Assembly: GCF_000379525.1 (NCBI RefSeq)
Contig: NZ_KB902363.1
Location: forward strand, 60,846-124,845
Reading direction: 5' to 3'
DNA: 64,000 nucleotides
Origin: Lamprocystis purpurea DSM 4197
Lineage (GTDB): Bacteria; Pseudomonadota; Gammaproteobacteria; Chromatiales; Chromatiaceae
Shown: positions 97 through 60,187 of the stretch, piece after piece
Layout of the letters: every line of letters starts with the position of its first letter
How positions within the stretch are numbered: the first letter of the stretch is position 1
Notes under the pieces: generated by a model
Database searches by the model: none
The model's input: the letters and a program-made list of their open reading frames with translations, nothing else
What the model was told of the DNA's origin: nothing
Translations under genes and position numbers: made by a program

Positions 97-193
97 CGTT
101 GTCGTTGTCGTTGTCGTTGTCGTAATCGTAATCGTAATCGGATAAGCGGTTCAAGTTAGGCATGAGCAGCCCGATGCCGATCAGGTTTCGATT
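97..193 (+). repeat. GTTGTC-tract dispersed element, copy A (one-ended)
   Basis: The stretch holds four GTTGTC units (98-121), then three TAATCG units (123-140), then the conserved segment GATAAGCGGTTCAAGTTAGG and a GGTTTCGATT box also found near 54.1 and 60.0 kb. No inverted GACAAC tract follows before iscS, so the distal half is missing. The tripled TAATCG is unique to this copy. No gene is visible in 80-211. Confidence 0.8.
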
Positions 194-211
194 TAGTGAA
201 CCGTTCCTTAG

Positions 212-1426
212 TCAATGCCCAACCCATTGCACTGACTTGAGATCCACCCCGTCCTGATACATGTCCCAGAGCGGCGAGAGTCCGCGCAGCCGCTCTACCT
301 GGGTGCGGATCTTGGCGATCGCATAGTCCACCTCCTCCGCGGTGGAGAAACGGCCCAGGGTGAAGCGGATGGAGCTATGAGCGAGTTCGTCCTCGCGGCC
401 GATCGCCCGCAGGACATAACTGGGTTCGAGGCTGGCGGACGTACAGGCGGAGCCGGAGGAGACGGCCAGATCCTTGAGCGCCATGATCAGCGACTCGCCC
501 TCCACATAGGCGAAGCTGACATTGAGATTGCCGGCGACCCGGTGTTGCGCATCGCCGTTCAGAAAAACCTGATCCAGGTCCTTGAGTCCATCCCACAGCC
601 GTTCGCGCAGGGCCAGCACGCGCGCATTCTCCTGCACCATTTCGAGGCGGGCGAGGCGGAAGGCCTCGCCCATGCCGACGATCTGGTGGGTGGGCAGGGT
701 GCCCGAGCGCAGGCCGCGCTCGTGACCGCCGCCGTGCATCTGCGCCTCGATCCGCACTCGCGGCTTGCGCCGCACATACAGTGCGCCGATGCCCTTGGGA
801 CCATAGGTCTTGTGGGCCGAGAAGGACATCAGATCCACCGGCATGACGTCCAGGTCGATCCGGACCTTGCCGGTGCTCTGGGCGGCGTCCACGTGCAGCA
901 GGCAGCCGCGGGCACGGGTCAGTTCGCCGATGGCGGCGATGTCCTGGATCACCCCGATCTCGTTGTTCACGTGCATGACCGAAACCAGGATGGTGTCATC
1001 GCGCAGGGCGGACTCCAGCTTGTTGAGGTCGATCAGGCCGTTCGGTTCGGGGTCGAGATAGGTGACCGTGAACCCCTCACGCTCCAGTTGGCGACAGGTG
1101 TCCAGCACCGCCTTGTGCTCGGTCTTGACGGTGATCAGATGGCGCCCGCGCTTCTGGTAGAAGTGGGCGGCGCCTTTGATCGCCAGATTGTCGGATTCGG
1201 TGGCACCGGAGGTCCAGGCGATTTCTTTGGGATCGGCGTTCACCAATTCGGCGACCTGTCGACGGGCATCTTCCACGGCTTCCTCAGCCGCCCAGCCGAA
1301 GGCGTGGGAGCGTGACGCCGGGTTGCCGAACACGCCATCCGGGGTGAGGCAGGCACACATGCGTTCCGCCACCCGCGGATCGACCGGGGTGGTGGCTGAA
1401 TAGTCCATATAAATCGGCAGCTTCAT
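212..1426 (-). CDS. iscS: Cysteine desulfurase IscS
   Basis: A PLP enzyme that takes sulfur from cysteine and passes the persulfide to IscU and other acceptors for Fe-S clusters and thio-modified tRNA. The 404-residue protein begins [14 protein letters not shown], the family start. It has the PLP lysine in [12 protein letters not shown], the catalytic cysteine in [10 protein letters not shown], and the IscU-docking C-terminus ([11 protein letters not shown]). It lies downstream of iscR, as in isc operons. Downstream there are only repeat elements up to the window edge, so no iscU follows within 211 bp, which is unusual. Function is secure from motifs. Confidence 0.97.
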
Positions 1427-1543
1427 GTCGAACTCCGCGCCGCCTCCACCGTGCTGGAGGCAGGGGCACTCGCTAGGGATAGGGGCCGCGCGGCAACCCG
1501 CCGCGGGGCCCGCGCAACCGACCAGGCAGGTCGAACCGGCTGC

Positions 1544-2032
1544 TCAGATCGGGGCGGTGGCGCGTCCGCCCGCCACCACCCCGAGCTTGATGTCGACCGT
1601 GGTGCAGGGCTGGGTGCGGTCGCCCGCAGGGTCGCGCCGATTCACCAGATCCTGCAGCGTGATGGTCTCCAGGTAGTCCTGGATCCGGTTGCTCAGGTCG
1701 AACCACAGCGCGTGGGTCAGGCAGGGGTGACCATCCTGGCAGTTGCCGGCGCCGCCGCAACGGGTGGTGTCCACGTTCTCGTCCACCGCGACGATGACCT
1801 CAGCGACGTGGATTTCGCCGGCGGAACGGGCCAGATTGTAACCTCCGCCCGGACCGCGGACACTGGTCACCAGGCCGTTACGTCGGAGTTTGGCGAACAA
1901 CTGCTCCAGATAAGACAGGGAGATACCCTGCCGTTGGGCAATGTCGGCAAGCGCCGTCGGTCCCTGGCCGTGATGGATGGCCAGGTCCAGCATCGCAGTG
2001 ACCGCGTAGCGGCCTTTCGTCGTCAGTCTCAT
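1544..2032 (-). CDS. iscR: Rrf2-family Fe-S regulator IscR
   Basis: IscR represses the isc operon when it carries a [2Fe-2S] cluster. The chosen ATG gives 162 residues beginning [18 protein letters not shown], the family start; the longer reading frame adds 11 non-conserved residues. The N-terminal winged helix (about 1-70) is followed by ligands Cys92, Cys98 and Cys104, with His107 close by, as in E. coli IscR. A 117-bp gap separates it from iscS. A promoter overlapping an IscR-like operator lies directly upstream (2064-2092), which suggests autoregulation. Confidence 0.95.
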
Positions 2033-2063
2033 GCTCCACGCCCTCCGGGGGTCTTCCCTGCAC

Positions 2064-2092
2064 ATCCTACGTTACCCGACCTCATTGATCAA
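2064..2092 (-). promoter_or_regulatory. Candidate iscR promoter with IscR type 1-like site
   Basis: On the minus strand TTGATC (-35, 2087-2092) and TAGGAT (-10, 2064-2069) are 17 bp apart. The 20-mer at 2073-2092 reads TTGATCAATGAGGTCGGGTA. It resembles the core of the type 1 IscR motif known from E. coli: the half GGTCGGGTA matches at 8 of 9 positions and the other half is weaker. The site begins directly after the cysE stop. Binding is inferred. Confidence 0.5.
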
Positions 2093-58260: not shown

Positions 58261-58266
58261 GCCGGT

Positions 58267-59037
58267 ATGGCAGGGATGCTCGCGATCCTGGTCGGGGTCG
58301 TGCTGCTCGGTGGCGCGGGACTGCTGTACGCCGAGTATCGGCAAGAGTCGCGTGTCTTGCGCGAGGCGGCGATCGGCGTTGTCGACGCCGACCATCAGCG
58401 CGACCCCGCGCGCACCGTGGAACGACTCACCCGTTGGGTCTACAACAACCAGGGGTTCGCCAAGAATTCACGTTATTTCCTGAGTCCGCGATTCGGCCCG
58501 ACGCCGTTGCAGGTGCTGGAATCAGGGGGCGATTGTGCCGATAAATCCAGGCTGCTGGCGGCCATGCTCGACGAGTTGGGTATTCCCAGTACATTGGTGA
58601 TGCTCTACGCGCCCGACTATGCCAGGTCCACGCACACGGTGGTGGAAGCCCGGTTACCCGGTTTTCGCGCGGCAGCCGACCCGGTATTCGATATCGTGTT
58701 TCCGGACGGGGCCGGCGGTTTGCTTGGGGTGGCGCAGCTCAAGCAGCAGCCGGAGCGCTTCGAGGCGCGCATTCATGCGCTTGCCGCAGAACGGGGTCCG
58801 GCCTCCAAAGTCGCCTTTTATCCGACCGAACTTGAGAGCTACCGGTGGCCCAGGACCATCAACTGGGAGCGTATGCCGGTCACGCGCCTCCTCGGCTCAG
58901 TGCTCGGTTGGGTCGTCCCTCAACCCGATCTGTTAACGCGGCCGCGTCTGCTGGCCGAGCCTAAGCTGCTTGTTTCGGTAGCGCTATTTTGGCCGGGGCT
59001 GGTGTGTGTCGGGCTGGGTTGGCTGCTGATGCCTTGA
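58267..59037 (+). CDS. Transglutaminase-like membrane protein
   Basis: A 256-residue protein with an N-terminal membrane span (about 3-22, ILVGVVLLGGAGLLYAE) and a C-terminal span (about 235-254). Between them is a transglutaminase-like core with catalytic Cys in GGDCADKSRLLAAML, His in STHTVVEA and Asp in AADPVFDI, so a papain-like hydrolase or transferase in the periplasm is possible. Its target is unknown. It shares the thrC transcript by spacing. Confidence 0.75.
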   Translation: MAGMLAILVGVVLLGGAGLLYAEYRQESRVLREAAIGVVDADHQRDPARTVERLTRWVYNNQGFAKNSRYFLSPRFGPTPLQVLESGGDCADKSRLLAAMLDELGIPSTLVMLYAPDYARSTHTVVEARLPGFRAAADPVFDIVFPDGAGGLLGVAQLKQQPERFEARIHALAAERGPASKVAFYPTELESYRWPRTINWERMPVTRLLGSVLGWVVPQPDLLTRPRLLAEPKLLVSVALFWPGLVCVGLGWLLMP

Positions 59038-59140
59038 CCCAAGGCGCTTGTAATCGCGGTCGATCAGTGGCATTTCGCGCCCTACGCGATTGACCGGTCA
59101 AACCGGACGTGTTACGAATCCCAATACGAGGCTGCATACG

Positions 59141-59893
59141 ATGGCATCTGCTCAACTGACTGGAGCCAATATTGATCCGGCCGAAGTCGCCTATTATGAG
59201 CGCCTGGCTCACCGTTGGTGGGATACCACCGGGCCCTTCTGGCCCCTGCACCGACTCAATACCTTTCGCGTCGGTTATCTGCGTGATCGGGTTGCGCTCA
59301 CGCTGGGTTTGGATCCGCGGCAGGAGCATCCGTTTGCGGGGTTGCGGGTGCTCGATATTGGCTGCGGCGGCGGCATCTTAAGCGAGTCCGTGGCCCGCCT
59401 GGGCGCCACGGTGGTCGGCGTGGATGTGACCGAGAAAAACCTTGGTGTGGCACGCTTGCACGCCGGCTGGAGTGGCTTGACGATCGACTACCGGTTGGAA
59501 TCCGTCGATCAACTTGCCGATTCCGGAACAGTCTTCGACCTGGTGCTGAACATGGAAGTGGTGGAGCATGTCGAACGGCTGCCCGACTTTCTTGCGCACT
59601 GCGCCCGCCTGGTCCGGCCGGGCGGTGTCATGGTGGTGTCCAGCATCAACCGGACCGTCGCGGCGGCTTTCATTGCAATCTTCGGGGCGGAATATGTCCT
59701 GCGCTGGTTGCCGCGAGGGACCCACCAGTATCGCAAACTGGTGCGTCCGGGCGAGGTGATCGCCGGTCTTGGCGCGGATTATCGCGTCCTGGATCGGACC
59801 GGGGTGCGGGTCAACCCGTTCAACCGGGCCTTCTCCCTGACCCGATGGATGGGGGTGAACTATATGCTCGTGATGCAGCGGTGTGACGATTAG
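59141..59893 (+). CDS. ubiG: Ubiquinone O-methyltransferase UbiG
   Basis: SAM-dependent O-methyltransferase acting twice in ubiquinone synthesis. The 250-residue protein starts MASAQLTGANIDPAEVAYYE and has WWDTTGPFWPLHRLN, the SAM motif VLDIGCGGGILSE, NMEVVEHVERLPDFL, and GTHQYRKLVRPGE. An upstream 17-residue extension was not used. Confidence 0.94.
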   Translation: MASAQLTGANIDPAEVAYYERLAHRWWDTTGPFWPLHRLNTFRVGYLRDRVALTLGLDPRQEHPFAGLRVLDIGCGGGILSESVARLGATVVGVDVTEKNLGVARLHAGWSGLTIDYRLESVDQLADSGTVFDLVLNMEVVEHVERLPDFLAHCARLVRPGGVMVVSSINRTVAAAFIAIFGAEYVLRWLPRGTHQYRKLVRPGEVIAGLGADYRVLDRTGVRVNPFNRAFSLTRWMGVNYMLVMQRCDD

Positions 59894-59928
59894 TAACGTG
59901 TCAGAAACAAGCTAAACAACGATACACT

Positions 59929-60187
59929 CGTTGTCGTTGTCGTTGTCGTTGTCGTAATCGGAGAAGCGGTTCAAGTTAGGCATGAGCTGCCCGCTGTCTA
60001 TTTGGTTTCGATTCGCTCCGTCGCTTGGGCGTACAAGACCATCAAGCGTCTGAAAGGCTTGGATCACCACGCGCGGGACCGGCGTTCTTCATCGTGCCGG
60101 CCGGAGCGATGATGAAGGCCCACGGGCCTAACGTTCATTGCGGTGCGAGAGAATACTCGCCGGCATCGTAAACGCGATTATGACAAC
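59929..60187 (+). repeat. GTTGTC-tract dispersed element, copy E (full length)
   Basis: Four GTTGTC units (59930-59953), CGTAATCGGAGAAGCGGTTC, the CCCGCTGTCTAT box, CAAGACCATCAAGCGTCTGA and GGCTTGGATCACCACGCGCG follow in order, ending with a short degenerate inverse tract (GATTATGACAACA, about 60175-60187). It fills the gap between ubiG and the convergent reductase gene; no other gene in 59894-60214. Confidence 0.85.

Follow-up and report, generated by a model that had tools for sequence, protein, structure and literature searches.

The window analysed here, 64,000 nucleotides of Lamprocystis purpurea DSM 4197 (contig NZ_KB902363.1, positions 60,846 to 124,845 of the forward strand), carries five copies of an element in which arrays of the hexamer GTTGTC and its inverse GACAAC frame a conserved interior. 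The element is very likely an ISAzo13-type miniature inverted-repeat transposable element (MITE) of about 130-340 bp with a hexamer-framed, invertible core. Comparison of its termini with those of insertion sequences (ISs) suggests that it is probably moved in trans by an ISAzo13-family transposase.

The five repeats are real and mutually related. The sequence GTTGTCGTTGTC occurs 18 times in the window, every time within one of the five copies, compared with 0.01 occurrences expected from 100 dinucleotide shuffles. The left arms of copies 1-5 contain 4, 2, 6, 2, and 4 perfect units, respectively. The right arm is missing in copy 1, contains 2, 4, and 2 units in copies 2-4, and is reduced to one GACAAC in copy 5. 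Inspected by eye, the ordered interior is readable, with mismatches, in all five copies; it runs from the left in copies 1, 4, and 5 and is reversed in copies 2 and 3. All five copies lie between the main open reading frames (ORFs) of the window, and the ORFs overlapping them are, by eye, spurious, upstream extensions, or terminated at the element. The copies extend past the hexamer tracts, so the boundaries noted earlier are too narrow. Further copies exist outside the window. In the genome of the strain (G000; 6.9 Mb in 211 contigs), the arm pattern GTTGTCGTTGTCGTARTCG has 145 exact matches, 71 on the plus strand and 74 on the minus strand, 8 of them in the window, while the reversed-pattern control has 0.

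Conservation runs approximately 19-60 bp outside the arrays and stops at a sharp boundary, as seen in 63 array arms read with their surroundings. Before the array, the A side reads GTAACGAGTCAAGAACAAGTTAAACACGAACACAATC and the B side, in reverse, reads GGAACGGTTCACTAATAAGTTAAACAAGTCCATTAGGG...TC. The A end (GTAACGAGTCAAGAACAAGTTAAACA) and the B end (GGAACGGTTCACTAATAAGTTAAACA) are imperfect 26-bp terminal inverted repeats (TIRs). With hand-seeded hidden Markov models (HMMs) of the two ends, and a complete copy defined as one with both ends above 25 bits, we obtain 43 complete A/B copies among the fetched sequences. Complete A/B copies measure 129-342 bp and have no transposase gene. Identical 3-bp flanks are present in 14 of the 43, compared with 6.2 expected by re-pairing (P = 0.0007); in this and the other end and flank counts, orthologous copies differing in sequence may count twice. 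A smaller, earlier count gave 7 of 22 compared with 3.95 expected. None of the 43 copies has flanks identical at 4 or 5 bp. The flanks also show a TNA preference: position -3 is T in 80 and position -1 is A in 78 of the 110 A ends, and among the 81 B ends the corresponding numbers are 56 and 73.

The termini connect the element to an IS. The B end matches repeats at contig ends of the relative G001, which lead to an IS with an ISAzo13 transposase. In G005, a 420-residue ORF matches the NCBIfam ISAzo13 model (NF033519) with 404 bits (cut-off, 200) and Pfam PF07592 with 289 bits. Five IS left ends were scored, and each agrees better with B (20-23 of 26 positions) than with A (18-19). The six right ends scored match A at 20, 20, 20, 20, 16, and 18 of 26 positions and B at 14-19, and A is the better match in each. 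Across two background contigs (1.36 million 26-mers per end), a score of at least 20 is reached only 8 times for A and 6 times for B, the elements' own ends included. Because a B-end match was what initially revealed the IS, a more independent test comes from the right ends and from the G005 copy, which was found by protein. Two IS copies with both ends in view are flanked by 3-bp duplications (TTA/TTA and CCA/CCA); ISAzo13 generates 3-bp target duplications, according to the available part of one report (PMC10045372). The ISAzo13 IS (NF033519, PF07592) and the MITE thus share terminal repeats, a 3-bp duplication, and the genus in which they occur, but the MITE has no transposase and carries hexamer arrays, which are not seen in the IS copies read. 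The initial annotation had proposed a non-autonomous mobile element, and the terminal repeats in common with ISAzo13-family ISs, the TNA target, the excess of 3-bp duplications, and the high copy number support that proposal.

NF033519 has matches in 5 of 8 genomes of the genus, above the cut-off in 3, and is not found in G002, G004, and G007; G004 nonetheless has DNA matches to the IS end region. PF07592 has matches in all 6 genomes searched, above the cut-off in 5, with three matches below it in G007. A nearly full ISAzo13 copy, L129 (G006:C170), has in-frame TAG stops in its reading frame. A different parent, the four-helix-bundle (23S intervening-sequence) protein, had been considered on account of DYDNDND tails and was dropped once the IS ends were found; PF05635 has 3 matches in the strain's genome.

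The interior occurs in both orientations relative to the outer ends. Among 153 ISAzo13-type arms classed by their inner sequence (a further 49 are unclassifiable), the interior is reversed relative to the outer end in 17 (7 among 84 A arms, 10 among 69 B arms), a count in which orthologs may count twice. In copy 4 (L011), the interior is inverted relative to both ends, and both arms are scored as swapped. In a stricter recount of element pairs matched at both flanks across two genomes, orientation is kept in 7 of 9 pairs and reversed in 2. The clean flip is L231 of 'Candidatus Thiodictyon syntrophicum' Cad16T (G007) versus L042 of G005, whose interiors match with 65 bits in reverse and 14 forward. 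Both flanks and both outer ends are in the same order, and only the segment between the arrays is reversed. For the other pair, L198 (G005) and L185 (G003), reversal is indicated only by a short match (32 versus 14 bits; interiors of 241 and 84 bases). Two further candidate pairs were discarded: L020 and L019 lie within one genome, and the match between G007 99092 and L344 ran through the repeat arms.

Array length is variable. Unit numbers differ between orthologs, for example 4 + 3 perfect units versus 1 + 6, and copy 4 has 2 and 2 units where its G006 ortholog has 2 and 6. Across 157 elements of all types, the unit numbers of the two arms show no correlation (r = -0.05, p = 0.72), and no coupling of arm lengths is seen. 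Slippage, suggested earlier as the source of the variation, agrees by inference with the differing orthologs and the independently varying arms. Predicted RNA folds of 38 elements greatly exceed those of shuffled sequences in stability (median z of -5.2 and -5.4 on the two strands; z below -2 in 36 of 38 on each), a stability that follows from the inverted arrangement of the arrays.

These observations are consistent with the following mechanism. The A and B ends would correspond to the right and left terminal repeats, respectively, of an ISAzo13-family IS, whose transposase would act on them in trans and insert the element at TNA, with the 3-bp duplication visible as a statistical excess. With GTTGTC inside one end and GACAAC inside the other, a single strand is predicted to fold into a long hairpin. 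The arrays may lengthen and shorten by replication slippage, as their length differences suggest. Because both orientations and flipped orthologs occur, the interior appears to invert in place, and the simplest reading is that recombination or template switching between the two arrays would flip it.

Several facts weigh against this interpretation. The set of complete copies is non-random, since many loci were obtained via similarity to an element composite. Identical 3-bp flanks are missing in 29 of the 43 copies. Among the 70 end pairs screened, where flanks sufficed, none reveals a clean empty site in which one copy of the target is restored; the comparable sites are filled in both genomes, decayed, or altered. 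On the IS side, discovery via the B-end match makes the left-end agreement less independent, other IS ends seen remained outside the scored set, the weakest right end (G005) matches A at only 16 of 26 positions, and 3 of the 6 scored right ends are near-identical copies from the strain's own genome, where the transposase is seen only as pieces at contig ends. Cad16T has 415 arms, no ISAzo13 transposase, and three sub-threshold PF07592 matches, and G001 has IS ends and a transposase piece with no array match; parent and MITE thus need not coexist now. The evidence for inversion is one clean pair and one short match.

The core, (GTTGTC)nGTAATCG...(GACAAC)n, also lies inside different ends, in Cad16T as well as in other genera. 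Besides the ISAzo13-type element, Chromatiaceae have at least three MITE types that carry it, one with 9-bp duplications. Elements with both arrays number 171, in a set selected in part by ends; 57 carry the A/B pair of ends (chassis I), 20 carry both ends of chassis II, 13 those of chassis III, and 4 those of chassis IV; 5 have the same end class twice, 58 have one assigned end, 13 have none, and 1 is mixed. The mixed case, L330, was considered as a hexamer-level hybrid and turned out on reading to be a chassis II copy against a chassis I piece. Chassis II (for example, L425-L444) has the TIR GGGTGCGATCAGAACTGATG, with 156 ends in Cad16T. All 20 fetched copies have both arrays, one arm being a single unit in two of them. 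Their 9-bp flanks agree with at most 1 mismatch in 6 of 20 (0.00 expected) and with at most 2 in 11, and differ at three to seven positions in the other 9; in a first, smaller try, 3 of 6 pairs had at most 1 mismatch and 3 had 6-8. In 400 kb of Cad16T there are 20 array loci, of which 7 score as type I, 11 score as type II (one also weakly as type I), and 2 are unassigned. Two transposition systems therefore carry one core in one genome.

An ISKra4-family copy on the third contig of G007, pTs485 (NZ_CP020372.1), has 8-bp identical flanks and shares GGGTGCG and TGATGTG with chassis II; on this resemblance only, chassis II is possibly of ISKra4 type. Two more MITE types with the same core end in TAGTGCA (L271-L279, L304, L317, L350, and L361; Thiobaca and Thiocystis) and in GGTGATTTCCGG (L264, L266, L280, and L357; Thiocapsa). 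By eye, a few Thiobaca copies of chassis III seem to target TA. As GTAATCG and the array orientation are common across types, common descent of the core is favoured over chance. We tentatively propose, as a possibility somewhat short of an even chance, that the core may be a portable, invertible module taken up by several unrelated Chromatiaceae MITE types (3 bp at TNA; 9 bp; possibly TA), with the arrays driving repeated in-place inversion at up to hundreds of intergenic flip sites per genome, some of them in operons such as pqqB-pqqC.

The element, abundant in some purple sulfur bacteria, is confined to one family among the genomes sampled. In a first sample, the pattern is present in 7 of 38 genomes, all of the same genus (7 of its 8 genomes), with arm counts of 628, 415, 145, 121, 12, 5, and 3, and none in G001. 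Across the order, a related pattern is present in 23 of 210 genomes, 7 of them from the same genus and 16 from five further genera in this family. In a sample of the class, 1 of 369 genomes has the pattern, namely that of the strain itself, and outside Chromatiaceae it is found in 0 of 365 sampled class genomes. A scan with named sequences gives at least 80 loci in at least 112 stretches; the titles among the matches listed are Thiodictyon, Lamprocystis, Thiocystis, Thiobaca, Thiocapsa, Thiohalocapsa, and Chromatiaceae bacterium. At approximately 88-96% identity, G004 contains the window region and G006 the right part of it. G004 has only part of copies 2 and 4, and copies 1, 3, and 5 are absent with altered junctions; in G006, where the comparison covers the right part of the window and not copies 1 and 2, altered versions of copies 3, 4, and 5 are present.

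The copies that persist are intergenic; many coincide with stop codons, and some supply the stop themselves. In four 50-kb stretches of pTs485 (200 kb, 77% listed as coding in a gene table that is incomplete by its own account), all 12 element matches, one of them weak (23.7 bits), overlap listed coding sequences by at most 11 bp. One of these matches lies between pqqB and pqqC in Cad16T and has an ortholog in G005. Among 25 A ends, 14 coincide with the stop codon of a long ORF, as do 6 among 19 B ends, compared with 678 of 5210 control TNA sites outside long ORFs. In 8 of the 20 stop-codon cases, the element terminus makes the stop wholly or partly (+1 TAA or TGA, or TA|G). Of the window copies, copy 3 begins directly after a TAG stop (35799-35801), and the first G of copy 5 completes the TAG stop (59891-59893) of ORF 59090-59893.

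The initial annotation described ends that are microsatellites. The hexamer tracts are the most visible common feature and are inverted at the two sides, but the true ends lie approximately 19-60 bp further out, at the sharp boundary of conservation; the TNA preference and the 3-bp duplications start outside that boundary, and it is the outer termini that match the IS ends. It is therefore highly improbable that the tracts themselves are the mobile ends. The two interior orientations may instead derive from old subfamilies or separate insertions, as might be expected with a single clean flipped ortholog and 7 of 9 orthologous pairs keeping their orientation. This is unlikely, since L231 and L042 have flanks and outer ends in order with only the between-array segment reversed, and since the interior is reversed with respect to the ends of the very same element, an arrangement that insertion of a whole element cannot yield. 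Repetitive extragenic palindromic (REP) sequences and bacterial interspersed mosaic elements (BIMEs) are based on a single palindromic unit, are linked to REP-associated tyrosine transposases (RAYTs), and lack target duplication; the terminal repeats and the 3-bp duplication argue against such an identity.

Convergence would explain a core common to several MITE types if genomes spontaneously generated GTTGTC arrays, and array lengths do change readily. However, in the examined stretches of two genomes, where 15 and 27 perfect hexamer arrays have at least 3 units, GTTGTC is the unit in 11 and 22, respectively. In addition, 50 of 60 GTTGTC arrays of at least 2 units in 862 kb (G000 and G007) have an inverted partner within 500 bp; nine of the ten partnerless arrays are at scored element ends, and the tenth looks like a truncated element. 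Different types also have in common the neighbouring GTAATCG and the inward-pointing arrays, and we regard independent origins as improbable. Alternatively, the element may now be mainly an RNA hairpin that serves the host at gene 3' ends by stabilising or processing transcripts, its mobility being past. The excess at stop codons, the strong predicted hairpin on both strands, the pqqB/pqqC copy with its ortholog, and the copy between isc-like ORFs are in accordance with such a role. The fold, however, follows from the inverted arrays alone, and the arm lengths are unmatched; at the five window sites, G004 is without copies or has only parts of them, and the stops TAA and TGA are TNA targets too, and a safe site. 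We consider a present role of this kind rather unlikely.

The element is a new family within a known kind, the MITEs; what is unusual is the sharing of the core and the apparent inversion of the interior. In organelle genomes, small hairpin-loop inversions occur, in which a loop between short inverted repeats flips in place; those are single loci, whereas here a dispersed mobile family has microsatellite arms. The listings of the literature searches include no report of a microsatellite-framed core common to unrelated MITE types with an interior flipping in place, and the search on the literal hexamer strings found no paper on bacterial repeats, judged by titles; the earlier statement that no described family has this structure holds in those listings. 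Among described elements, the repeat unit of pneumococcus (RUP; 107 bp, TA target), thought to be mobilised by IS630-Spn1, is likewise short, gene-less, of high copy number, and equipped with ends common to one IS family, but the part of its description available mentions no internal microsatellite arrays or inverting interior (PMC2229807). Tn3-derived inverted-repeat miniature elements (TIMEs) are also gene-less and form mosaics; in the part of the source available, they differ in having Tn3 ends, 5-6 bp duplications, and gains of whole modules instead of a common hexamer core (PMC4133298). The TAACTGA direct repeats of Beggiatoaceae are short intergenic tandem units with a patchy distribution in sulfur bacteria, Thiocystis violascens being listed; as far as the available part of that report goes, they are heptamers, with 169 direct sets and one indirect set in the main genome, lie mostly just upstream of start codons, and spread by a mechanism that is not evident (PMC4679880).

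The family offers many natural sites per genome for following slippage and inversion between short inverted arrays in bacteria. Core sharing would show that, in an element without genes, interior and ends can have different histories. If a flip changes the expression of a neighbour, the element would be a dispersed switch, which is hypothetical.

Table 1. Copies of the element, their hexamer arrays, and an inserted repeat in the window.
Feature	Position	Strand	Remarks
Copy 1, complete short form	79-207	+	A end left, B end right; A-end HMM from 79, 26.5 bits; B end to 207 by reading; flanks CTA / TTA
Copy 1 (GTTGTC)4	98-121	+	Without inverted partner array
Copy 2	23727-24222 (right limit approximate)	-	B end left, B-end HMM 64.6 bits at 23728; A end mostly lost
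Copy 2 (GTTGTC)2	23786-23797	+	Partner (GACAAC)2 at 24198-24209
Copy 3	35802-36346	+	A end at start, interrupted by a second repeat; no B end remaining; interior reversed with respect to A end (by eye)
Second, unrelated repeat (CTAGCAGCCTGTCGGACTT...GACAGGCTGCTAG)	35811-36058 (limits approximate)		Inserted in A end of copy 3
Copy 3 (GTTGTC)6	36076-36111	+	Partner (GACAAC)4 at 36319-36342
Copy 4	53990-54202	-	Complete; B end on the left, shortened internally (by reading); A end on the right, HMM 48.1 bits
Copy 4 (GTTGTC)2	54033-54044	+	Partner (GACAAC)2 at 54154-54165
Copy 5	59893-60187	+	A end left, HMM 52.0 bits; right end lost
Copy 5 (GTTGTC)4	59930-59953	+	Single GACAAC at 60182-60187

Copy 1 is located between ORFs that read, by eye, as iscU-like and iscS-like. 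The right end of copy 5 is lost together with approximately 1 kb that G004 and G006 have there. Two copies of another hairpin repeat (GTAGTCAGG...CCTGACTACG) lie inside copy 2, at 23850-23930 and 24080-24170. The repeat inserted in copy 3 is very roughly 250-300 bp long and contains inner GTAGGAGCCCGCTTGCGGGCGACG hairpins; it also abuts copy 1 (left of 79), with further instances at L022/L023 and L024. A scan of the window with Rfam at gathering cut-offs gives no RNA family matching the element, and its only hit is a 6S RNA gene (RF00013, 78.7 bits) at 32997-33181 on the minus strand.

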